Source: Clostridiales bacterium (lineage in GTDB: Bacteria > Bacillota > Clostridia > Peptostreptococcales > Anaerovoracaceae). Taken from it: a stretch of DNA of 49,508 bases. Positions 22,739 to 48,405 of the stretch are shown here, in pieces (the stretch's first letter is position 1; each line of letters opens with the position of its first letter). The notes under the pieces were generated by a model. It was not told where the DNA came from and did no database searches. It saw only the letters and a program-made list of their open reading frames with translations. The translations under genes and the position numbers were made by a program. The stretch covers positions 1 through 49,508 of the forward strand of contig JALEQY010000105.1 of the NCBI GenBank assembly GCA_022763735.1, given 5' to 3'.

Positions 22739-24265
22739 ATGGCTATTATGATCAATGGAAGAGACCTTACTGTAGAGCAGGTTATAAGAGTCTGCAGAGA
22801 AAACGAAAAGGTGGAGATCACAGAAGACGCTCAGAGAGCAGTGCAGAAAGCCAGAGATTATGTTGATAAGAAGCTGGAGGAGGGTGCAATAATTTACGGA
22901 CTGACAACAGGCTTCGGGAAATTCTCTGACACCTTCATTTCTGACGATGAAACAGCAGATCTGCAGAGAAATCTTATTATAAGTCATACATGTGCTATGG
23001 GAAATCCATTGCCGAAGCATGTGGTAAGAGCCATCATGCTGCTCAGATGCAATGCACTTTCCAGAGGAAACTCGGGAATAAGACCGGGAACACTAAATAC
23101 ACTCCTTGATATGCTGAATAAAGGAGTTCATCCGCAGATTCCGGAAAAAGGCTCACTTGGTGCGAGCGGTGATCTGGCACCTCTGTCTCATATGGTCCTG
23201 ACGATGATCGGAGAAGGTGAAGCAGAATACCAGGGAACAGTAATGCCGGCAAAGGAAGCAATGGCAGAAGCAGGAATTCCTACTGTTGAACTTGCAGCCA
23301 AGGAAGGTCTGGCGCTGATCAACGGAACCCAGGTAATGACAGCTATCGGCATCAACGCATTATATGATACGATGAATCTGGCCAAGACAGCTGATATCGC
23401 TGCAGCAATGACAGCGGAAGCTCTTAATGGAATCAGAAAAGCATATGACTCTAAGGTGCATGAAGTCAGAGGCCATCAGGGTCAGATAGATGCCGCAGCA
23501 AATCTCAGAACTCTGCTTGAAGGCAGCGACAATGCCCATATGACGAATCCGAAAAAAGTGCAGGATCCTTATTCACTTAGATGTGTTCCACAGGTGCATG
23601 GAGCATCGAGAGATGCGATTAAATATGTATATGAAGCAGTCAGCAGAGAGATAAATGCAGTAACTGACAATCCTCTGATTTTCCCGGATGAGGATGAAGT
23701 GATTTCAGGAGGAAATTTCCATGGGCAGCCTATGGCGCTGGCTTTTGATTTTCTAAAAACAGCGGCCGCAGAATATGCCGATATATCTGAGAGAAGAAGT
23801 GAAAGACTGATCAATCCGCAGCTTTCAGAAGGGCTTGAGCCGTTCCTGACAAAACACGGCGGGGTATGTTCAGGCTTTATGATCGCTCAGTACGCGGCAG
23901 CATCTATGGTATCCGAGAATAAGATATACGCTCATCCTGCATGTGTCGACTCCATTCCGTCTTCGGGAAACCAGGAGGATCATGTAAGTATGGGAACCAC
24001 TGCAGCCAGAACTGCAGCAATGATAGTGGACAATGCACAGAAGGTTCTGGGAATTGAACTTTTCGCAGCATCACAGGCAATATGGCTCAGAGGTGAAAAA
24101 GGACTTGCTCCTGCAACCCAGGCGGTATACGATTTCATCAGGGGATCCGTTGAGCCGGTAGATGAAGATGTCATCATGCATTTTGAACTGAAGAAATTTG
24201 ATGAAATGATAAAATCAAATAAAATCGTTGAAGTTGTGGAAAAGGCTGTCGGACAGCTGAGATAA
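22739..24265 (+). CDS. hutH: Histidine ammonia-lyase
   Basis: A 508-residue lyase converting histidine to trans-urocanate and ammonia. The self-forming MIO cofactor comes from Ala142-Ser143-Gly144 in LGASGDLAPLSHM. The conserved TTGFGKF and GNFHGQPMALAFD stretches are present. AAAGGAG precedes the ATG. It is the first gene of hutH-hutU-hutI-fchA-ftcD. Confidence 0.97.
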   Translation: MAIMINGRDLTVEQVIRVCRENEKVEITEDAQRAVQKARDYVDKKLEEGAIIYGLTTGFGKFSDTFISDDETADLQRNLIISHTCAMGNPLPKHVVRAIMLLRCNALSRGNSGIRPGTLNTLLDMLNKGVHPQIPEKGSLGASGDLAPLSHMVLTMIGEGEAEYQGTVMPAKEAMAEAGIPTVELAAKEGLALINGTQVMTAIGINALYDTMNLAKTADIAAAMTAEALNGIRKAYDSKVHEVRGHQGQIDAAANLRTLLEGSDNAHMTNPKKVQDPYSLRCVPQVHGASRDAIKYVYEAVSREINAVTDNPLIFPDEDEVISGGNFHGQPMALAFDFLKTAAAEYADISERRSERLINPQLSEGLEPFLTKHGGVCSGFMIAQYAAASMVSENKIYAHPACVDSIPSSGNQEDHVSMGTTAARTAAMIVDNAQKVLGIELFAASQAIWLRGEKGLAPATQAVYDFIRGSVEPVDEDVIMHFELKKFDEMIKSNKIVEVVEKAVGQLR

Positions 24266-24277
24266 GGAGGAAAAGTC

Positions 24278-26302
24278 ATGCTGGACAACAAAGCAATATC
24301 AGATGCAATGACCATCAAACTGGATAATCAGCTTCCTGAATATCCGGGATTCGTTGAAGGAGTCAGAAGAGCTCCGGACAGAGGATTCAGACTTACGAAG
24401 GAACAGACTAGGATCGCGCTCAAAAATGCGCTGAGATATGTTCCGCAGGAGCTGCACGAAACTCTGGCACCTGAATTTATGGAAGAGCTCAGAAACTACG
24501 GCAGAGTATATGCATACAGATACAGACCTGAAGGCAGAATCTACGGCAGACCTATAGATGAATACAAAGGAAAATGCATAGAAGGCAAAGCATTTCAGGT
24601 AATGATCGACAACAATCTGGATTTTGAAATCGCACTTTATCCATACGAGCTTGTTACATATGGAGAAACAGGACAGCCGTGCCAGAACTGGCTGCAGTAC
24701 AGACTCATCAAGAAGTATCTTGAAGAGCTTACCCAGGATCAGACGCTGGTAATTGAATCAGGTCATCCGCTGGGACTTTTCCCGTCGAAACCTGAAGCAC
24801 CGAGAGTTGTTATAACAAATTCACTGATGGTAGGTATGTTCGACAATCTTGATGACTGGGAGATAGCAGAGGAGATGGGTGTCGCCAACTACGGACAGAT
24901 GACAGCAGGTGGCTGGATGTATATAGGACCTCAGGGAATTGTTCACGGAACATTCAACACCATACTGAATGCAGGAAGGAAATATCTGGGAGTACCTGAG
25001 CAGGGAGATCTGACAGGATACACCTTCGTGTCATCAGGCCTGGGAGGTATGAGCGGTGCACAGCCTAAAGCCGCTAACATAGCAAATGCAGTAGGTATAT
25101 TTGCCGAAGTAGATAAATCAAGAATAGAAACAAGACACAATCAGGGATGGGTGGATATTATCTGTACAGACCTGGATGAAGTTTTCAGAATTGCAAATGA
25201 GAAGCTGGAAGCAAAGGAAAGCATTTCAATTGCCTACTGGGGAAATATCGTAGATCTGCTGGAAGCAGCGGTAGAGAAGAACTTTCATATTGATCTGCTT
25301 TCTGACCAGACATCATGCCACAATGTATACAACGGCGGCTACTGTCCAGTAGGGCTCACTTTCCAGGAAAGAACAGAAATGCTTCACAGTGACAGGGAAA
25401 AATTCAAAGAAATGGTAGACAAATCACTGCGAAGACATTATGAAGCAATTAAAACCCTTACCGGAGGAGGAACATATTTCTTCGATTACGGCAACTCCTT
25501 CATGAAAGCTATGTACGATGCAGGTGTCAGGGAAATATCGAAGAATGGCTACGATGAAAAGGACGGATTCATCTGGCCTTCATACGTAGAGGATATCATG
25601 GGACCTATGCTGTTCGACTACGGATACGGACCGTTCAGATGGGTATGTCTGTCAGGAAAGCCTGAAGATCTTGACGCTACAGACCAGGCTGCGATGGACT
25701 GCATCGATCCGAACAGAAGGTTCCAGGACAGGGACAACTGGATATGGATCAGAGATGCCAAGAAAAACAAGCTGGTAGTAGGTACCCAGGCAAGAATTCT
25801 GTATCAGGACGCAGAAGGCAGAACAAGAATTGCACTCAAGTTCAACGAACTGGTGAGAGAAGGCAAGATCGGTCCTGTAATGCTGGGAAGAGATCACCAT
25901 GATGTAAGCGGAACAGATTCACCGTTCAGAGAAACAGCCAATATCAAGGACGGCAGTAACGTTATGGCCGACATGGCAGTACAGTGCTTCGCAGGAAACG
26001 CTGCAAGAGGCATGAGCCTGTGCGCTTTGCATAACGGCGGCGGCGTCGGAATAGGCAAAGCCATCAATGGCGGCTTCGGCCTCGTGCTGGACGGAAGCGA
26101 GAGAATCGACAATATCATCAGATCAGCAATGATGTGGGATGTAATGGGCGGCGTTGCCAGAAGAAACTGGGCACGAAACGAAAACGCTCTCGAAACATCT
26201 GTGGCATACAATAAGAATTATGCAGGGAAAGGACATATAACGATTCCATTCGTTGCAGACGATGCACTGGTAGACGATGTAGTATCAAAGTATGTAAAAT
26301 AA
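24278..26302 (+). CDS. hutU: Urocanate hydratase, long form
   Basis: A 674-residue NAD-dependent enzyme converting urocanate to 4-imidazolone-5-propionate. Conserved blocks include QNWLQYRLIKKYLEEL, AGGWMYIGPQGIVHG, the glycine-rich LGGMSGAQPKAANIA, and DQTSCHNVYNGGYCPVG carrying a catalytic cysteine. It is about 115 residues longer than the classical ~557-residue HutU and begins with a region like that of the ~676-residue animal urocanase, with which it probably groups. AGGAGG stands 12 bases after the hutH stop. Confidence 0.95.
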   Translation: MLDNKAISDAMTIKLDNQLPEYPGFVEGVRRAPDRGFRLTKEQTRIALKNALRYVPQELHETLAPEFMEELRNYGRVYAYRYRPEGRIYGRPIDEYKGKCIEGKAFQVMIDNNLDFEIALYPYELVTYGETGQPCQNWLQYRLIKKYLEELTQDQTLVIESGHPLGLFPSKPEAPRVVITNSLMVGMFDNLDDWEIAEEMGVANYGQMTAGGWMYIGPQGIVHGTFNTILNAGRKYLGVPEQGDLTGYTFVSSGLGGMSGAQPKAANIANAVGIFAEVDKSRIETRHNQGWVDIICTDLDEVFRIANEKLEAKESISIAYWGNIVDLLEAAVEKNFHIDLLSDQTSCHNVYNGGYCPVGLTFQERTEMLHSDREKFKEMVDKSLRRHYEAIKTLTGGGTYFFDYGNSFMKAMYDAGVREISKNGYDEKDGFIWPSYVEDIMGPMLFDYGYGPFRWVCLSGKPEDLDATDQAAMDCIDPNRRFQDRDNWIWIRDAKKNKLVVGTQARILYQDAEGRTRIALKFNELVREGKIGPVMLGRDHHDVSGTDSPFRETANIKDGSNVMADMAVQCFAGNAARGMSLCALHNGGGVGIGKAINGGFGLVLDGSERIDNIIRSAMMWDVMGGVARRNWARNENALETSVAYNKNYAGKGHITIPFVADDALVDDVVSKYVK

Positions 26303-26316
26303 ACAAGGGGAAACGC

Positions 26317-27546
26317 ATGAGATTATTAATAAAAAATATTGGCTGGCTGCAGACACCTGCAGGCAGCTACAGCCATAAGGGCAGCAAGCAGGGAAAGAAC
26401 CTCAAGCTGAAAGATGCTGCCATCGCTGTAGAAGACGGGATCATCAGAGAAATCACAGAAGACGGCAAACTCCCGGAAGGTGAGTTTGATCAGGAAATCG
26501 ACGCAGAGGGAAAACTGGCCACGCCGGGTTTTGTTGACGGACATACCCATCTGGTTTTCGGAGGCTACAGGCAGAACGAGATCCCGATGAAGCTTGCCGG
26601 AGCAGGATATCTTGACATCCTGAGAGCCGGAGGCGGAATACTGGACACAGTGAGAAAAACAAGAGAAGCGAGCTTCGAAGAACTTTATGCCAAGAGTGAA
26701 GGATTCCTTGATGAAATGCTTAATATGGGTATCACCACATGCGAAGCCAAGAGCGGATACGGACTTGACATGGAGAATGAGCTCAAAATGCTGGAAGTGA
26801 TAAAGGCACTGGGAGAAAAGCATCCGATGGATGTGGTACCGACCTTCATGGGAGCCCATGCGATACCGCCTGAGTACGAAGGCAGAGGCGACGAATACAT
26901 AGAAATGCTTTGCAGTGAAGTTATTCCGGAAGTCCGAAAAAGAGGACTTGCCGAGTTCTGCGATGTGTTCTGCGAGGATTCGGTATTTAACGCGGAGCAG
27001 AGCAGGAAGTATATGGAAAAGGCACGTGAATATGGATTTGAACTTAAGATACATGCCGACGAGATTGAGGACATAGGGGGTTCAAGACTGGCGGGCGAGC
27101 TGGAGGCTGTATCGGCCGAGCATCTTATAGCGGCGGGCGAATCCGGAATGGATTCCATGGCATCCGGCGGAACAACGGCGATGCTGCTTCCGGCAACATC
27201 GTTCTATCTCGGCAAGACATACGCACCGGCAAGAACCATGATAGACAAAGGAATACCTGTAGCTATCGCCAGCGATTTCAATCCCGGCTCATGTCCGTCA
27301 CTGAATCTGCAGCTGGCGGTAAACCTGGGATATCTCAGATACAAAATGACACCGGAGGAAATCCTGACTGCAGTGACAATTAATCCTGCATGTGCAATAA
27401 ACAGAGGAGATCTGGTGGGAACAATTGAAGAAGGCAAGCAGGCGGATATCGTTATCTGGGATGCGCCTGATTTCGAAATGCTGTGCTACAGATTCGGTTC
27501 GAATCTCGCTGACAAAATAATCAAAAAAGGAGAATTGATCAAATGA
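26317..27546 (+). CDS. hutI: Imidazolonepropionase
   Basis: A 409-residue metal-dependent amidohydrolase opening imidazolone propionate to N-formimino-L-glutamate. The metal site HTH appears in VDGHTHLVFGGYRQNE. Further family marks are KSGYGLDMENELKML, HADEIEDIGG and ASDFNPGSCPSLNL. AGGGG is upstream of the ATG, and the last four bases overlap the start of the next gene (ATGA), so the two are translationally coupled. Confidence 0.96.
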   Translation: MRLLIKNIGWLQTPAGSYSHKGSKQGKNLKLKDAAIAVEDGIIREITEDGKLPEGEFDQEIDAEGKLATPGFVDGHTHLVFGGYRQNEIPMKLAGAGYLDILRAGGGILDTVRKTREASFEELYAKSEGFLDEMLNMGITTCEAKSGYGLDMENELKMLEVIKALGEKHPMDVVPTFMGAHAIPPEYEGRGDEYIEMLCSEVIPEVRKRGLAEFCDVFCEDSVFNAEQSRKYMEKAREYGFELKIHADEIEDIGGSRLAGELEAVSAEHLIAAGESGMDSMASGGTTAMLLPATSFYLGKTYAPARTMIDKGIPVAIASDFNPGSCPSLNLQLAVNLGYLRYKMTPEEILTAVTINPACAINRGDLVGTIEEGKQADIVIWDAPDFEMLCYRFGSNLADKIIKKGELIK

Positions 27547-28169
27547 AGCTTATTGACCTGAGAATGAATGAGTATCTTGACATATTACTGTCAGATGCAC
27601 CGGCCCCCGGCGGCGGCAGTGTCAGCGCCCTTGCGGGAGCGCAGGCTGCAGCGCTGATGGGAATGGTCTGCGGACTTACCATCGGCAAGGAGAAATATGC
27701 TGATTATCAGGATGTATGTATAGAAGCTAAGGATAAGGCAGAAGATCTTTATACGAAATTCGCGGAAGCTATTGATAAAGATACAGAGGCATATAATCTG
27801 GTTGCGGCAGCTTTTAAAATGCCGAAAGAAACGGATGAAGAAAAGGCTGCAAGAAAGCAGGCCATCGCAGATGGAACACTGGAAGCAACAAAGGTTCCTT
27901 TCAGTGTAATGCAGATGGCAGCGGCTGGTCTAGAAATTGCTGAATCGATGGTTGGCAGATCGAATCCGAATGCTGCCAGCGATATCGGTGTGGCTGTGCT
28001 CAATCTCATGACATGCATGAAGGGTGCCTGGCTCAATGTGAAGATCAACCTGCCGGGAGTTAAGGATGAGGAACTTGCGGCGAAGTATAGTGCAGAGGGC
28101 ATGGCTATGCTGGAAAAGGGCGAAGAGACTGCGAAGAAGCTTTATGCGGAAATAGAAGGAAGCCTGTAG
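27543..28169 (+). CDS. fchA: Formiminotetrahydrofolate cyclodeaminase
   Basis: A 208-residue FTCD_C/cyclodeaminase-family protein converting 5-formimino-THF to 5,10-methenyl-THF and ammonia. The signature LSDAPAPGGGSVSALAGAQA is at the N-terminus. It corresponds to the C-terminal half of the animal bifunctional FTCD, here a separate gene. The start overlaps hutI. The neighbouring ftcD supplies its substrate, so the pair saves the one-carbon unit as methenyl-THF. Confidence 0.92.
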   Translation: MKLIDLRMNEYLDILLSDAPAPGGGSVSALAGAQAAALMGMVCGLTIGKEKYADYQDVCIEAKDKAEDLYTKFAEAIDKDTEAYNLVAAAFKMPKETDEEKAARKQAIADGTLEATKVPFSVMQMAAAGLEIAESMVGRSNPNAASDIGVAVLNLMTCMKGAWLNVKINLPGVKDEELAAKYSAEGMAMLEKGEETAKKLYAEIEGSL

Positions 28170-28245
28170 GACAGGTCCGAACGCACAGAACAAAGCTGGT
28201 GCCGGACGGCACTGTACACTTTATATAAAAACGGAGGAAAGACGA

Positions 28246-29142
28246 ATGGCGAAAATAATCGAAAGCGTACCTAATATCAGTGAAGGCAGAAATACAGAAA
28301 TAATTGAAGCATGTGTGGATCAGATAAGAAACACTCCTGGCTGTACCCTGCTGAATTATTCATCGGATCCGAGCCACAACAGAACTGTTATCACTTATAT
28401 GGGAAGCGTTGAAGGCTGCGAGGAAGCCAGCGTCAAGCTGGCGAAGAAAGCTGTGGAGCTTATCGACCTGACCAAGCATGAAGGGGAACATCCGAGAATG
28501 GGCTGCGTTGACGTAATGCCGTTTATCCCTATCAAGGAAGCTACAATGGACGAATGTGTCGAGCTTTCACAGAGAGTAGGAAAGAGGATCGCTGAGGAAG
28601 CTGATCTGCCGGTGTTCCTTTATGAAAAATCCGCTACGGCACCTCACAGACAGAATCTGGCAAAAGTGAGAAAAGGGCAGTTTGAGGGTATGGCTGAGAA
28701 GGTCAAGGACCCTGACTGGATTCCGGATTTCGGAGGACAGAGAATTCACCCTACAGGAGGAGCTGTGTGTGTAGGAGCAAGACCTCCTCTCATCGCATAC
28801 AATATCAATCTGGGAACCGATAATCTGGAGATAGCAACAAAGATAGGCAAAATCATCAGAGAATCTTCCGGCGGTCTTAAATGCGTCAAAGCTATGGGTG
28901 TTATGCTCGAAGACAGAAACATCGCCCAGGTATCAATCAACATGACCGACTTCACAGTGACACCTCTCCACAGAGTGACAGAGCTGGTAAGAAATGAAGC
29001 TGCCAGATATGGAGTACCTGTTATCGGAACGGAGCTCATAGGACTGGCTCCGATGCAGGCTCTGTTTGATGCAGCCGAGTATTATCTGCAGATTGAGGAC
29101 TTCGATCCTGCTGTTCAGGTTATAGAGAATCATCTGCTGTAG
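28246..29142 (+). CDS. ftcD: Glutamate formimidoyltransferase
   Basis: A 298-residue transferase moving the formimino group from N-formiminoglutamate to THF and releasing glutamate. It begins AKIIESVPNISEGRN and contains HEGEHPRMGCVDVMPFIP and the RPPLIAYNINLGT block typical of the FTCD N-domain. It matches the N-terminal half of animal FTCD. GGAGG precedes the ATG. It lies 76 bases after fchA in the same transcript and completes histidine degradation to glutamate. Confidence 0.95.
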   Translation: MAKIIESVPNISEGRNTEIIEACVDQIRNTPGCTLLNYSSDPSHNRTVITYMGSVEGCEEASVKLAKKAVELIDLTKHEGEHPRMGCVDVMPFIPIKEATMDECVELSQRVGKRIAEEADLPVFLYEKSATAPHRQNLAKVRKGQFEGMAEKVKDPDWIPDFGGQRIHPTGGAVCVGARPPLIAYNINLGTDNLEIATKIGKIIRESSGGLKCVKAMGVMLEDRNIAQVSINMTDFTVTPLHRVTELVRNEAARYGVPVIGTELIGLAPMQALFDAAEYYLQIEDFDPAVQVIENHLL

Positions 29143-42176: not shown

Positions 42177-43658
42177 ATGACAGAAAAAAACAGGTTCAGC
42201 AGACTGCTGGACAGTCTTATGGCGGATGCAGAGCTTAAGAACTGTGTTCTGGCAAATGAGCTTCAGTATGATGTATCATACATAAGCAAGTGGATAAGCG
42301 GACGCATGATTCCGTCTGAGAAATCTGCTGACAAGATTTTAGAAGGAATAAGCAGAACGTTAGTTGAATCATGCAGTGAGACAGGGAAACAGAAATTACT
42401 GAATGATTACCAGGTCGTCAGTGAAGCAGATCTGCAGATGGCAATATATGATAATCTGGAAGCGGAATACATTTATGTGAGAGATCTCAAAAAAAACACC
42501 GGCAGCGATGTGGCTCAGAAAACATACTTTTTCCCTGAACTGGATCTTGCACGGTACGTGGCAAAGATGCACCATCCCGTTCTGCGCAGGGTAAAATCTC
42601 TTGACGTGGTTGCAGTGATGGATCTTATGGCAATAGATAAGGAACAGAGACTCTGGTTTACAAAGATCAGAAATGAATACCTGCCGGAAGAGGGCGGATA
42701 TCCCAACGTTCATTATCGTATGCTGATAAATATCTGTGAAGATAAATGGGATTATATAAATGATACACTTTTTCTTGTCAATCTGCTGACAGATAATACT
42801 GCTATCGATTTCAGTCTGTATGGAGCAGAACAGGATCCCGGCAGAATGATATTTTCGGTAAAAGACGAATTCTTTATAACAGGCATGCTTATCAACAGCA
42901 AGAAATGTATATCTGTTTCAGTCAGTGAGGAAACAGAAAACTGCAGCGTAATATACAATAATGTCAGAAACCTGTGTACAAATGACAAATTACTGTTCCA
43001 GAGAATCATGATGATAGATATGCTTATGAGACATGATTATATTCATGCTATTATTTCCCCGAATCTGAGATGGGGAATAGGGCACATTACAGAACAGTTC
43101 ATGCCGGAGGATGTTTTTGAAGAAGTACTGACTGAGCTGGAAAGTGCAGGAACTCTGACGGTGAATCCTGATGATCTGAGGACTATACAGCATATGAATT
43201 ATAAAGCGATGCAGGAATCCGACATAAGGCTGCTTATACAGGAGGAGGCCGTTTCCAATTTTGTTGTACATAATGAAATCGATTATTATAACAGGAAGGT
43301 TCATCTGAATTCTGCCCAGATGGAACGTTGCATGGAGCATATGATCGAGCTGTGCCGAAGCTCGAACAATCTGGAGATCAGGATGATCTACGGCAATCTG
43401 GGAACAGAATGCCATTTTGCAGATAATGAATGTGTTTTTATCGGTGACACAATGTCATACATGAGAATGAAAAATGTCGGCAGTGAGAACAATGTCGTAA
43501 TGGTCAGCAGTCTGAATGTGCATAAGATACTGCAGCGCACATTTGAACTGTTGTGGGATTATGGAGATGGAGCCGTAGTATCGGATAAATCCGCCATAGT
43601 TGATTATCTGAACCATATGGTGGATGGAATACATCTTGTTTCACATATGAATAAATAA
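42177..43658 (+). CDS. HTH protein with a large unrecognised C-terminal domain
   Basis: A 493-residue protein. The first ~55 residues look like a XRE-type helix-turn-helix (LANELQYDVSYISKWISGRMIPSEKSADKI). The remaining ~430 residues match no domain I recognise. They contain no transmembrane segment, are mixed alpha/beta and acidic, and include ARYVAKMHHPVLRRVKSLD and HNEIDYYNRKVHLNSAQMERCMEHM. I infer a cytoplasmic one-component regulator with a sensor domain. AAAGGAG precedes the ATG. The acyl-adenylating gene follows after a terminator and is the obvious candidate target. Confidence 0.6.
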   Translation: MTEKNRFSRLLDSLMADAELKNCVLANELQYDVSYISKWISGRMIPSEKSADKILEGISRTLVESCSETGKQKLLNDYQVVSEADLQMAIYDNLEAEYIYVRDLKKNTGSDVAQKTYFFPELDLARYVAKMHHPVLRRVKSLDVVAVMDLMAIDKEQRLWFTKIRNEYLPEEGGYPNVHYRMLINICEDKWDYINDTLFLVNLLTDNTAIDFSLYGAEQDPGRMIFSVKDEFFITGMLINSKKCISVSVSEETENCSVIYNNVRNLCTNDKLLFQRIMMIDMLMRHDYIHAIISPNLRWGIGHITEQFMPEDVFEEVLTELESAGTLTVNPDDLRTIQHMNYKAMQESDIRLLIQEEAVSNFVVHNEIDYYNRKVHLNSAQMERCMEHMIELCRSSNNLEIRMIYGNLGTECHFADNECVFIGDTMSYMRMKNVGSENNVVMVSSLNVHKILQRTFELLWDYGDGAVVSDKSAIVDYLNHMVDGIHLVSHMNK

Positions 43659-43667
43659 GAATGAACA

Positions 43668-43706
43668 GCAAAGTGATTCCACGTGAATCACTTTGCTTCA
43701 TTTTTT
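43668..43706 (+). terminator. Terminator after the HTH gene
   Basis: Twelve-base arms GCAAAGTGATTC and GAATCACTTTGC around loop CACGT, then CATTTTTT. The next gene therefore needs its own promoter. Confidence 0.9.
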
Positions 43707-43805
43707 GTCAGTATGATTCCTGTGCATTCAATATTCGCATATGATATAGTAGGTTCTGTAATTTCAGCACATATTTATTTGGAATATATCAAGGGGAGGC
43801 AATTT

Positions 43806-45632
43806 ATGAATGAAAACTTTACAGGCAGGCCGAGTATAGACCGCCCATGGATGAAATATTATCCTGAAGCGATGAGGAATATGGAAATTCCTGAGTGCAC
43901 ATTGAGAGAATATCTCGAAGCCAACTGCAGAGGATGGGATCTGACCGCAGTTCACTATTACGGTACAGACATTTCCTGGAATACCCTGTTTGAAAATGTG
44001 GATGCAGTTGCGCGTTCACTTAAAGCGCTGGGCATCAGGGAGAACGATCAGATCCCGGTATTCCTGCGTTCGGTGCCTGAATTTATATATCTGCTGCTTG
44101 CTGCAGAGAAAATAGGTGCATCACTTCTCTGTCGCGACAATACACTTATGGAGAATGTTGAGGCTGTTGCAAAGTCAGGAGCCAGAGTTATAATTGCGCA
44201 TGATTTCCTAAGACAGCATGAGCTTGAAGCCTACCTTGCAGGCAGCAGTGTCGAGAAAGTGGTGCTGCTTGATCCATGCCATTCGGGCAATTATGAGAAG
44301 ATGCCTCCGCATGTGTTCTCTCATTTTGTGAAATGTTCACTTTCGCTTGATTCAGGTGATCATGAAGACATGCCGGAATACATCAGAAAGTCACTCGACA
44401 GTCATTATGGACGTTCCCCTGCTAGAGGACCGGCAACAATGACCTGGGATGAATTCCTGGCAGCAGGAAATCAGCATTTCGGTCAGGTAGCTGCTTCGCC
44501 GAATATCAATCGTCCGCTCCTGCGAGCATATACGAGCGGTTCTACAGGACCTTCCAAGCAGGTAATCCATTCAGCTCATACTATGATCGGTGTGATTCAT
44601 CAGATGAATTTCTATGCAAGCTCAGATGATTTCCGTACCACATGGCTGCTTACAATACTGCCTCCTGCACTGATAGCGGTAGTGGTATCAATGATTCTGA
44701 TGCCGCTGTCATCCAACAGAATACTTATTCTGGATCCATTCTGCGAACCTGAAGATGTAGACCTGGAGATGATGCGATATCGTCCTAATGCATGGCCGAT
44801 AATACCGATGTTTATTGATACAGTAATGAAAAACGGACGTCTGCCGGATGATTATGATATGTCTCATCTGCTGGCATCCGGCGTAGGCTGTGAATCATAC
44901 AACAATAAACAGATCAGGAACGCTCAGAAGTTCCTGAACAGCTATAACTGCGATGTGACATTCACTGTGGGCTACGGATGCAGTGAAGCCGGATCAAATG
45001 TCACTATTCCTGTAATTTCACGTATGTTTTCAGACGGTAACGTGGGAATTCCTCTGCCGAAGACAGTTATCAGCATATTCAGACCGGGGACAGAAGAAGA
45101 ACTGACATATAATCAGCAGGGAGAAATCTGCATCAGCGGACCTGGGCTTATGCTGGGATATGATACACCGGAAGCGACAGCAAAGGCATTGTGGAGACAT
45201 AAGGACGGAAGAATATGGCTGCATACAGGTGATATCGGATATATGGCAGAAGACGGAAACCTGCATACCCTGACACGAGGTAAAGCTCCGAGATTCGGAG
45301 GAGGAGACCTGGCGACACTGCCGATGGAGAACCTTGTCGCAGATGCCAATATTGAGGGTATTGACGATGAGTTCTTCGTTGTGGTTCCCGATGAAGAACA
45401 TCCAGGATATTTCCTGCCGTACATGTATGTGATGCTTGAAGACGGATATGAAGTGGCAGATGTGGAGATGAAGATAAGAAAATGCCTCAGACCTCACATG
45501 CAGCCTGTTGAGATAATACAGCTCAAAGAAAGACCGTTTTTCCACTTTAAGACCAACAGGTTAGGACTGCAGAAAGATATCGTTTCAAAGAGGCAGGCAG
45601 CCAAGGGAACAGAAGAAGAAAAATACGCGTGA
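43806..45632 (+). CDS. AMP-binding (acyl-CoA synthetase-like) enzyme
   Basis: A 608-residue ANL-superfamily adenylating enzyme. The P-loop is YTSGSTGPSKQV (about 242-253; the usual form is TSGTTGxPKG). The A5-like VGYGCSEAGSN (about 388-398), WLHTGDIGYM (471-480) and LTRGK follow. The C-terminal lysine motif normally PKTxxGK reads FHFKTNRLGLQK, so the domain-alternation lysine is not in a standard context. An in-frame ATG at 43683 lies in the preceding terminator region; ATG at 43806 has GGGGAGG upstream. The acid substrate is unknown. The promoter is not clear. Confidence 0.8.
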   Translation: MNENFTGRPSIDRPWMKYYPEAMRNMEIPECTLREYLEANCRGWDLTAVHYYGTDISWNTLFENVDAVARSLKALGIRENDQIPVFLRSVPEFIYLLLAAEKIGASLLCRDNTLMENVEAVAKSGARVIIAHDFLRQHELEAYLAGSSVEKVVLLDPCHSGNYEKMPPHVFSHFVKCSLSLDSGDHEDMPEYIRKSLDSHYGRSPARGPATMTWDEFLAAGNQHFGQVAASPNINRPLLRAYTSGSTGPSKQVIHSAHTMIGVIHQMNFYASSDDFRTTWLLTILPPALIAVVVSMILMPLSSNRILILDPFCEPEDVDLEMMRYRPNAWPIIPMFIDTVMKNGRLPDDYDMSHLLASGVGCESYNNKQIRNAQKFLNSYNCDVTFTVGYGCSEAGSNVTIPVISRMFSDGNVGIPLPKTVISIFRPGTEEELTYNQQGEICISGPGLMLGYDTPEATAKALWRHKDGRIWLHTGDIGYMAEDGNLHTLTRGKAPRFGGGDLATLPMENLVADANIEGIDDEFFVVVPDEEHPGYFLPYMYVMLEDGYEVADVEMKIRKCLRPHMQPVEIIQLKERPFFHFKTNRLGLQKDIVSKRQAAKGTEEEKYA

Positions 45633-45646
45633 TTCATATATGGGTC
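45631..45646. promoter_or_regulatory. Putative activator site U1 upstream of the sigma-54 promoter
   Basis: GATTCATATATGGGTC matches 13 of 16 bases of the motif at 48381-48396 in front of the sigma-54 activator gene. It lies about 175 bases upstream of the -12 element at 45819, a usual distance for enhancer sites. It overlaps the stop codon of the adenylating enzyme, so its selection is uncertain. Confidence 0.45.
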
Positions 45647-45705
45647 AGACAGTGTTTAAAAAGCGATTTTATTAAGAAAAGGGAGAATATAATAACAGGA
45701 GAAAT

Positions 45706-45804: not shown

Positions 45805-45822
45805 TTGGCATGGAATATGCTT
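45805..45822 (+). promoter_or_regulatory. Sigma-54 (-24/-12) promoter
   Basis: TTGGCATGGAATATGCTT fits the TTGGCACG-N4-TTGCT consensus, with GG at 45807-45808 and GC at 45819-45820, exactly the 12-base phasing required. It is the only such element I noticed in the window. It lies 54 bases upstream of the 77-residue gene. The adjacent gene at 46192-48270 encodes a sigma-54 activator. Confidence 0.75.
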
Positions 45823-46140: not shown

Positions 46141-46173
46141 GAACCCGGAGCATCAGACAATGCTGCCGGGTTC
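46141..46173. terminator. Hairpin between convergent genes
   Basis: GAACCCGG and CCGGGTTC outer arms with an inner AGCAT/ATGCT stem. T runs are poor on both sides, but it stands between the convergent 77-residue gene and the sigma-54 activator. Confidence 0.6.
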
Positions 46174-46191: not shown

Positions 46192-48270
46192 TTACAGTCC
46201 GTATTTTGTTTTCTTGCGGGCCAGGGTTGCCTGGGGAAGGTCCAGAAGCTGTGCAGCTTTTCGGGTTGTACCTTCTTTCTGCAGAGCATAGGCGATGAGT
46301 TTCTTTTCCTGCTGTTCCATTACAGATCTGAAACTGAGGGACTCGTTCCTGCGGAATTCATTTTTGATGTTGAGGATAGTTTTATCATAAGTATCCGCAT
46401 TAAGAAGCTTATCTACCATATCTTCATCAATTATTGAATCCCGGCAGCTGATTATAAGCCGCTGGACAATGTTTTCAAGTTCTCTGACGTTGCCTGGCCA
46501 GTGATACTCACACATGAGTTCAAGCGCTGCCGGTGAAATCTCACGTGAAATTCCGTATTTCTTATTATAATTGTTCAGGAAAAACTGAGAAAGGCATATA
46601 ATGTCCTCTTTTCGCTCTCTGAGGGGTGGTACGGTGATCATGCATATGTTCAGCCTGTAATAGAGGTCTTCTCTGAATCTGCCGGATTCGACAAGCTCCT
46701 GCAAAGGGACATTGTTAGCGCAGATGACTCTCACATCAACGGTTTTCTGCTGTGTGCCGCCTACTCTGTAATAACGGTTCTCCTGAAGGACACGAAGCAG
46801 CTTGGACTGCATGCTCAGCGAGAGAGTTCCTATTTCGTCCAGGAATAGGGTCCCCTGATTGGCGAGCTCGAAGTATCCCTGTTTTCCCTGATTCTGCGCA
46901 CCTGTGAAGGCACCTTTCTCATATCCGAAAAACTCTGATTCCGCGAGGTTTTCCTGTATCGTTGCACAATTTATTTTAATACACGGTTTGGACTGTCGCG
47001 GAGAATTGTGGTGTATAATCTCAAGCACCTTTTCTTTACCTACACCGGTTTCCCCTTGTATGACGACATTGCAGTCATATCTGGCGATGTTGAGAGTCTC
47101 TTCGATCATTTCACGTGTCACAGGACTCTGAAAGACAAAATCGTTGATTTTCTCGGCAGTGTCCAGAGTTCTGGACTTAAGCTTGTTGGCATGGGTATGG
47201 TGTTCTTTTTTTATGCCGCGATAAATTTCATCCAGCTTGTCAAGTTTTGAAGCCAGTTTTTTCAGCAGCGACATGGTGAATTCCTGGTTCCCTTTCATAT
47301 ACTGGTCAAAATAGTTTGTCTTGACAGTTTTGCCCATGGTTTCGGCTACAAAAACTCCCTGGGAGTATTTACTTCTGATCGACGAGAAAAAAAGATTGCC
47401 GTTGTCTTTTACCAGCAGTACCGCCAGAGTTTCAGCTCCCCGGATATCCTCACTGACTATTACCAGGTCCTGATGGCTGTTATCGCTGGATTTGCGGCAG
47501 AGATAGTCATATGAGTCCATCGGGGCTGTATCGTCTACCAGATAGACATTGTGTATGTCAGGTGCCATAAGTTCTGCTATGACGTCGGCACTGATGTCAG
47601 GAAAAAGTGTTTCATCGATTATGACATTTATCTGTACATCGTCACCCATAACTTTTTTTATTGCTTCAGTGTAAATAAGGGGTGTGAAAAGGTCTCTGCT
47701 TAGAATTGTGACTTTGCGGGGTCTGATTTCTCCTGCCAGTTTATAGGTTTTGTAAAAGTTTCCGGCTTCGTCTATGGCTATCATGGTGTAGTTGAGTCTG
47801 ACGTCTGATTCCACACTGAAAAGGTGATCCGGCCTGAAGCAGATGCCGTAGCCTGAGGCGGTAAACTGACAGTTTTCGTAATCTATATCAGTGATGGCAT
47901 CTATATGAAGGGGCACTGCCATAAGAGCTGTGACACAGTATACCTTGTCCCCGGGTTTGTGGGGGCATTCTTTCCTGGCGTTTGCACCGATGGCTTCTAT
48001 GGTGCCCATCATGATGCCGCCGCTGCCGGTGTATGGATTGTGCAGCTTGCCTCGTTTGTCTATGATATCAAGTATTCTTGCTCTGACTTTGCTGTCATCG
48101 TAGCCGCAGCTTGTGCAGATCTGCTGGAAACTGTCCCATTCGACATGTATTCTGTCGATGGATATACGTATTTCATCAGGTGTGATTTTTCTGCTGTTGT
48201 CCAGTTTCCATGCTGTGACAGGTACAGTATTCTCAGGCTCTATAACGCGGTTTATCCCAAAATTGTTCAT
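46192..48270 (-). CDS. Sigma-54-dependent activator with a Kdd-like sensor domain
   Basis: A 692-residue regulator. Residues ~1-350 resemble L-erythro-3,5-diaminohexanoate dehydrogenase (Kdd, lysine fermentation): NRVIEPENTVPVTAWKLDN, RGKLHNPYTGSGGIMMG and PGDKVYCVTALMAVPL, and later GNLFFSSIRSKYSQGVFVAETMGK. The nucleotide-binding GxGGxxG of the enzyme is replaced by ILSRDLFTPLI (~189-199), so catalysis is unlikely. Residues ~378-610 are the AAA+ domain: GETGVGKE (406-413), GAFTGA (453-458) that contacts sigma-54, LFLDE and WPGNVREL. A Fis-type HTH ends the protein (RKAAQLLDLPQATLARK). I infer it senses a lysine-fermentation intermediate. GGAGG precedes the ATG. Confidence 0.85.
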   Translation of the reverse strand: MNNFGINRVIEPENTVPVTAWKLDNSRKITPDEIRISIDRIHVEWDSFQQICTSCGYDDSKVRARILDIIDKRGKLHNPYTGSGGIMMGTIEAIGANARKECPHKPGDKVYCVTALMAVPLHIDAITDIDYENCQFTASGYGICFRPDHLFSVESDVRLNYTMIAIDEAGNFYKTYKLAGEIRPRKVTILSRDLFTPLIYTEAIKKVMGDDVQINVIIDETLFPDISADVIAELMAPDIHNVYLVDDTAPMDSYDYLCRKSSDNSHQDLVIVSEDIRGAETLAVLLVKDNGNLFFSSIRSKYSQGVFVAETMGKTVKTNYFDQYMKGNQEFTMSLLKKLASKLDKLDEIYRGIKKEHHTHANKLKSRTLDTAEKINDFVFQSPVTREMIEETLNIARYDCNVVIQGETGVGKEKVLEIIHHNSPRQSKPCIKINCATIQENLAESEFFGYEKGAFTGAQNQGKQGYFELANQGTLFLDEIGTLSLSMQSKLLRVLQENRYYRVGGTQQKTVDVRVICANNVPLQELVESGRFREDLYYRLNICMITVPPLRERKEDIICLSQFFLNNYNKKYGISREISPAALELMCEYHWPGNVRELENIVQRLIISCRDSIIDEDMVDKLLNADTYDKTILNIKNEFRRNESLSFRSVMEQQEKKLIAYALQKEGTTRKAAQLLDLPQATLARKKTKYGL

Positions 48271-48341: not shown

Positions 48342-48349
48342 AGACTTTT

Positions 48350-48396
48350 GATTCATTTATGAGAAATATGAGTATTTTGTGATTCATTAATGAGTC
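48350..48396. repeat. Two copies of GATTCATTWATGAG, 31 bp apart
   Basis: GATTCATTTATGAG (48350-48363) and GATTCATTAATGAG (48381-48394) share 13 of 14 bases and begin 31 bp apart, almost exactly three helical turns. This places both on the same face of the DNA, upstream of the activator promoter. They are likely binding sites for the activator or another regulator. Confidence 0.65.
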
Positions 48397-48405
48397 TGAA
48401 CTGCA

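Follow-up and report, generated by a model that had tools for sequence, protein, structure and literature searches.

A sigma-54 activator with a sensor domain derived from a lysine-fermentation dehydrogenase: fold, relatives and predicted targets

Architecture and fold of the activator

The stretch of DNA that was analyzed (the window; 49,508 nucleotides, contig C14 of a 2.17 Mb draft genome) carries a gene for a 692-residue protein with the following parts.

46192..48270, minus strand: sigma-54 activator with a sensor derived from 3,5-diaminohexanoate dehydrogenase (Kdd), 692 aa
47221..48270, minus strand: Kdd-like sensor domain, residues 1–350 (NF052381, PDB 7dl3, AlphaFold2 with structural alignment)
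47674..47706, minus strand: former dinucleotide-binding loop, residues 189–199, ILSRDLFTPLI, with 0 of 3 glycines left
46636..47133, minus strand: AAA+ sigma-54 interaction domain, residues 380–545 (PF00158, E = 4.4e-65)
46897..46914, minus strand: GAFTGA loop, residues 453–458
46195..46335, minus strand: Fis-type helix-turn-helix (HTH), residues 646–692 (PF18024, E = 8.8e-6, below cut-off)

The protein is a one-component sigma-54 activator. Residues 1–352 model as the fold of L-erythro-3,5-diaminohexanoate dehydrogenase (PDB 7dl0, 7dl1, 7dl3 and 7dl7), to which the sensor is homologous over its full length; the AlphaFold2 model aligns with the Kdd structures. The initial annotation had claimed such full-length likeness for the first 350 or so residues, and NF052381 (the NCBIfam Kdd model), PDB 7dl3 and the aligned AlphaFold2 model agree in upholding it. 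It had also read the glycine motif as replaced by ILSRDLFTPLI and the remainder as an AAA+ sigma-54 activator with GAFTGA; both readings hold, the AAA+ domain matching PF00158 (Sigma54_activat) at 218.9 bits against a cut-off of 20.2. The sensor differs from Kdd in scoring under the enzyme cut-off (130 bits to NF052381, against 200), in lacking the nucleotide glycines, in carrying Glu168 in place of Val178 and in being fused to AAA+ and HTH domains. The HTH scores 25.8 bits to PF18024, below the cut-off of 27, and lies where a Fis-type HTH is expected. The best NCBIfam match of the whole protein is PrdR (E = 1.7e-99), which covers residues 370–690 only and, at 333.8 bits, does not reach the 795-bit full-length cut-off of NF041552. 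A PAS sensor like that of KamR was rejected, as a Pfam scan found no PAS match at E ≤ 1 and the N-terminal part models as Kdd. A sigma-54 gene is present in the genome (PF04552, on contig C17).

Relatives of the fusion and changes in its sensor

Matches at E ≤ 1e-15 were found in 139 of 247 genomes of the same family (genomes with Kdd only counted in), in 31/391 of a class sample and in 81/398 of a phylum sample (own genome counted in). Outside the family, only G265, G340 and G738 carry long fused frames among the matches listed; the others are Kdd-like in length. In named genomes, 155 stretches were confirmed by scanning, and the best 80 of these were taken as loci; the genomes with matches include Emergencia, Clostridium aminobutyricum, Anaerovorax, Acidaminobacter, Sinanaerobacter and Aminicella lysinilytica. 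At least four fusion activators (L065, L071, L073, L088) occur in C. aminobutyricum DSM 2634, one of them beside CoA-transferase- and thiolase-like genes. The fetched loci yielded a set of 109 distinct fusions and 52 Kdds; L063 and L098, two activators truncated at contig ends that the first tree had labelled Kdd, were later excluded.

A single branch separates activators from Kdds with support of 100/100. The activators split into two groups: K, whose members mostly adjoin kdd and are transcribed divergently from kal, and B, which has longer branches and holds the window copy and the copy on contig C101. L083_6805 and L093_2258 were counted as group B throughout; in the careful trees L083_6805 groups with K, whereas L093_2258 had been thinned out of these and pairs with L083_6805 in the first tree. 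Their loci (L083 6805–11046, L093 2258–6423) each have two tandem fusion activators before a kamA-like gene with one exact sigma-54 promoter.

Five fusions from other places branch before the K/B split, in the order L158, L180 with L181, L134 and L133, the positions of the last two being less sure. Their loops read, in the same order, GAGGKIG, GAWGKMA/GAYGKMG, GASSKIG and GANGKVG, so that three keep all three glycines and two keep two. All three glycines of the G-x2-G-x2-G loop are present in 52/52 Kdds. Among the 109 fusions, the second is kept in one and the third in two, both are absent from 107, and nine, the window copy included, have lost all three; the window has Leu, Phe and Pro at these positions. 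Since the early-branching fusions retain most or all of the loop glycines, disarming most likely postdates the fusion and belongs to the branch that leads to K and B. For the same reason it is not the disarming that makes the fusion a regulator, a point on which the initial reading needs correcting.

Four of the five early fusions (L133 in L177, L158 in L179, L180, L181) adjoin a second Kdd-like gene, which branches apart from ordinary Kdd. By eye, L177 and L179 also have kce- and kal-like genes beside the loop-keeping fusion, with TRAP-type transporter genes in L177. The neighborhoods of L177, L179, L180 and L181 possibly encode a pathway for a different diamino acid.

R8, E33, G74, K75, N78, P79, G89, G107, G140 and G291 are invariant in all 109 fusions and all 52 Kdds. 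Dividing the domain ourselves into a Rossmann half (residues 183–320) and a catalytic half, we found that, of the positions invariant in Kdd, those conserved in at least 90% of the fusions number 22 of 87 (catalytic half) and 4 of 42 (Rossmann half); the window copy keeps 37/87 and 11/42, respectively. With so few of these positions surviving in the fusions, the pocket has changed a good deal. Furthermore, the fusions have conserved residues of their own that are rare in Kdd: W21 and G278 (109/109 each), H77 (108/109), and E44 and E168 (106/109 each), the last being Val in 52/52 Kdds. W21 and E168 are present in L158, L180 and L181 as well. The sensor seems to have been under selection for a new function and not in decay. 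Synonymous sites were saturated (−1 was returned for several pairs), and dN/dS of the sensor was left unused.

Predicted promoters, operators and target gene

The flanks of the activator gene contain the following features.

45630..45647, no strand: predicted upstream activator site TGATTCATATATGGGTCA, the only exact palindrome match in the genome
45746..45783, plus strand: hairpin and T-run that separate the activator site from the promoter and likely terminate the upstream AMP-ligase gene (by eye)
45805..45821, plus strand: predicted sigma-54 promoter TTGGCATGGAATATGCT, one mismatch to TTGGCAYN5TTGCW; same element in L052 and L053
45876..46109, plus strand: predicted target gene, encoding a helical protein of 77 aa (undescribed family), with a GGAGG ribosome site in front
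46141..46173, no strand: hairpin between the convergent 77-aa and activator genes (by eye)
48349..48366, no strand: another predicted activator site, TGATTCATTTATGAGAAA, weaker (two mismatches) and 31 bp from the 48380–48397 site
48380..48397, no strand: predicted activator site TGATTCATTAATGAGTCT, one mismatch, roughly 110 bp ahead of the activator gene

The promoter at 45805–45821 ends 54 bp before the ATG of the 77-aa ORF. Its one mismatch is ATGC at −12, which recurs in 10 of 12 small-gene promoters (window, L052, L053, L055, L057, L069, L105, L115, L116, L122); the other two, in L071 and L072, have TTGC. Across the whole genome, sites with at most one mismatch number 43, against 17 for the reversed pattern, and the window promoter, itself one mismatch away, therefore rests on its conservation in relatives. 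The excess is larger near activators. Within 3 kb of them (window left out; counted per activator, so that the L083 and L093 sites enter twice), there were 100 exact matches, 85 of them before a gene, and none to the reversed pattern. One-mismatch sites numbered 45 versus 4 in the control, and two-mismatch sites, at 53 versus 37, weigh little because they barely exceed it. A site with at most one mismatch lies within 1.5 kb of 85 of the 106 scanned activators (K, 53/64; B, 32/42; reversed pattern, 1/64 and 1/42). K-group sites precede kal and kdd, as well as kamA in L083 and L093. Those of the B group mainly precede divergent NhaC/ArcD-like or EamA transporters (representatives assigned with Pfam, the others by clustering) and also the small gene, which is mostly convergent with the activator. 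A LysO-type exporter guessed by eye beside some B-group genes was dropped, as NCBIfam gave no support (best E = 0.061).

By eye, the small-gene promoters share a palindrome, TGAYYCAT-NN-ATGRRTCA. Some of the promoters used for the counts had already served to derive it, the 45630–45647 site among them; the sites at 48349–48366 and 48380–48397 and that at 8836 in L052 had not, and so give independent support. Genome-wide, only 45630–45647 and 48380–48397 match the palindrome with one mismatch or none, and the reversed control gives no match; three further sites have two mismatches (G000 C19:5159, C38:5377, C48:556). The 41 B-group loci have 6 sites at ≤ 1 mismatch (0–1 in 20 shuffles of the half-sites) and 18 at ≤ 2 (0–12 shuffled), and the 107 other loci have 0 and 3; many B-group loci, that of the C101 copy (L016) included, have no site at ≤ 2 mismatches. 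L052 repeats the window layout, with one site before the activator and another, with a sigma-54 promoter, before the small gene; L053 has a predicted site and a sigma-54 promoter before its small gene. K-group flanks carry GAACC-N6-GGTTC (26/67 upstream, 35/67 downstream), whereas no dyad in single-base shuffles exceeded 2. K and B operators both fit TGANNC-N6-GNNTCA, a shared frame that is as expected for paralogues diverged in DNA specificity.

The likely target of the window copy, judged from these elements, is the 77-aa protein gene, together with the promoter region of the activator itself. L052 has the ORF at 88% identity. Searched with a profile, 157 loci showed the family in the window and at 15 others, each with a B-group activator; its absence from K-group loci is weaker evidence because many of these are only about 4 kb long. 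In a family sample, 14 of 119 genomes (own counted in) match at E ≤ 0.001 and nine at E < 1e-9, the matches in G086 and G106 lying a few kb from known fusions. L055 (11132–11638), L057 (11135–11641) and L064 (18019–18801) encode a longer protein with two or three tandem copies. Neither the window ORF (taken as a 113-aa version from a longer start) nor three relatives matched a Pfam or NCBIfam model above cut-off; the relatives gave weak SurA_N_3 matches below it. The AlphaFold2 model of the 77-aa protein contains helices only, and its pLDDT of 67.8 makes it too weak for a fold search. It belongs to an undescribed small-protein family that is likely under sigma-54 control.

In the window (42177–45632), an HTH protein and an AMP-binding ligase adjoin the 77-aa gene; L052 has a response-regulator-like gene there instead, so this neighbor is not conserved. 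The ligase stop codon coincides with the first three bases of the predicted activator site at 45630–45647.

Two further Kdd-activator fusions are encoded in the genome, on C101 (50% identical to the window copy) and C109 (39%). The single true Kdd (242 bits, above the NF052381 cut-off) is on C109, in a lysine cluster with kdd, kamA, kamB, kamC, kamD, kamE and kal above NCBIfam cut-offs and with CoA-transferase genes. The C109 fusion lies between kdd and kal, with sigma-54 promoter matches before kal (exact) and kdd (one mismatch). That on C101 is divergent to an NhaC-family transporter gene (PF03553), preceded by a sigma-54 site with two mismatches (one in its counterpart in L130). The window activator has no adjoining lysine genes. 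The proposed link to lysine genes holds for the family, whose members adjoin kdd, kal or kamA with sigma-54 promoters before those genes, and not by position for the window copy. The lysine-gene regulator in this genome is probably the C109 paralogue rather than the window copy.

Proposed mechanism, ligand and related regulators

We favor, with a probability of roughly 0.6, a reading in which the window protein is a Kdd-sensor activator that would act as a lysine-metabolite receptor, bind the palindrome and activate the 77-aa gene through sigma-54. A Kdd that has lost its dinucleotide loop would serve as a small-molecule receptor, and a metabolite in the Kdd-derived cleft would alter the packing of the sensor on the AAA+ ring. 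That metabolite would most likely be a diamino or keto-amino acid of lysine fermentation, for example beta-lysine, 3,5-diaminohexanoate or 3-keto-5-aminohexanoate. The activator would sit on TGAYYC-N6-GRRTCA, at 45630–45647 for its target and at 48349–48397 near its own start, and would remodel sigma-54 polymerase at 45805–45821 so that the 77-aa gene is transcribed. The C109 paralogue would act in the same way on the lysine cluster, and the C101 paralogue probably on the NhaC-family transporter. The initial idea of an enzyme co-opted as a sensor stands insofar as a Kdd became the N-terminal domain of a sigma-54 activator and the dinucleotide motif was lost. Computation supports the architecture, the fold, the lost glycines, the promoter sequence, the uniqueness of the sites and the conserved arrangement; ligand binding, the direction of its effect, control of the target and the identity of the ligand are steps that we infer.

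The likeliest ligand of the fusion family is a lysine-fermentation metabolite, since the K group lies inside lysine clusters and a true Kdd above cut-off is present in 30 of the 33 genomes that carry B-group activators (from 33 loci, completeness unstated); in the other three genomes no Kdd exceeded the cut-off. For the window copy itself the chances of such a ligand are about even. This copy could, by the same mechanism, have drifted to another amine or amino acid and control a function outside lysine fermentation. The 30 Kdd-bearing genomes weigh against such drift, as do L083, L093, L073 and L081, B-group or nearby loci that adjoin kamA-, CoA-transferase- or thiolase-like genes (by clustering and eye). 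We consider it a real possibility, though still doubtful, as the predicted target is an uncharacterised protein, no lysine gene adjoins, B branches are longer than those of K, and other B members adjoin NhaC/ArcD-like and EamA transporters of uncertain cargo.

The sensor might instead report redox or energy state through a rebuilt nucleotide site that recognizes NAD(H), an adenine nucleotide or a cofactor-like ligand. D219, at the end of strand 213–219 (the second Rossmann strand), is Asp in 106 of the 109 fusions and mainly Gly, His or Ser in Kdd, and an acidic residue at that strand end is typical of NAD-specific folds. The two or three loop glycines kept in the five early-branching fusions would also favor such a site, though these fusions lack D219. 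The position of E310 is Glu or Asp in 108/109 fusions (Glu in the window and in 67/67 K-group rows; 30 Glu, 11 Asp and 1 Gly in 42 B-group rows). In Kdd, Glu310 is reported in a review to hydrogen-bond the NADPH amide, and the variant E310G to have an altered substrate scope (PMC9902596); because of the amide contact, retention of E310 does not show that the substrate pocket survives, and we dropped it as proof of this. The kept E310 and gained D219 may leave room for a nucleotide in a rebuilt cofactor site. Nucleotide sensing is nonetheless unlikely, given a loop without its second and third glycines in 107/109 fusions and with Leu, Phe and Pro in the window. Least probable by far is that the N-terminal domain is a structural or oligomerization relic and that expression level sets activity; the many Kdd-invariant positions lost and the predicted activator sites before the activator's own gene would fit this, but the fusion-specific residues and the 77% identity between the window and L052 sensor domains speak against it.

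The relatives may display a stepwise conversion of enzyme to sensor, an idea that we put forward tentatively, at somewhat less than even odds. Early loop-keepers may sense substrate and cofactor together (or even convert the substrate), and later loop-losers, with a remodelled cofactor site, may have diversified into paralogues with the operators TGAACC-N6-GGTTCA and TGAYYC-N6-GRRTCA and with targets that include the new small helical family, sometimes in tandem. The conversion is traceable and testable because loop-keeping and loop-losing members both exist.

Activators of amino-acid fermentation in Clostridia (PrdR, OrdR and LeuR; PMC6615313) belong to the same AAA+ class as the window protein, and OrdR is predicted to control an ornithine operon ending in nhaC (PMC6615313). 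That survey covers 490 Clostridiales activators with many sensor domains (PAS, GAF, PrpR_N, ACT, CBS, V4R, the Fe-only hydrogenase C-terminal domain and others); those given in its main text include no Kdd, and the word lysine does not occur there. As the hydrogenase domain is on its list, a borrowed enzyme part is not without precedent (PMC6615313). Here a whole pathway enzyme would have been borrowed as receptor, compared with the PAS-, GAF- and ACT-type sensors described for sigma-54 activators of Clostridia (PMC6615313). KamR of Bacillus thuringiensis is a sigma-54 activator of kamA (lysine 2,3-aminomutase) that senses through a PAS domain (PMC4428206), whereas the window sensor is Kdd-derived. 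In Thermoanaerobacter, a lysine riboswitch is followed by an operon for lysine catabolism in which a regulator gene named pspF3, a sigma-54-activator name, precedes kal and kce (PMC5584792). In contrast, an Rfam scan of the window, L016 and L017 gave only one tRNA match and no riboswitch, and a lysine riboswitch as control of these genes was rejected. No Kdd-sensor activator was described in the literature searched, which included PMC4428206, PMC3162934, PMC9902596, PMC3149608, PMC5584792, PMC6615313 and PMC12316311, and prior notice is possible. The fusions propose how lysine fermenters turn the pathway on, with operator sequences predicted for two paralogue groups and an undescribed small-protein family pointed out. 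Elsewhere in the window (22739–29142), a run of genes resembles by eye a histidine-degradation cluster (hutH, hutU, hutI and others).
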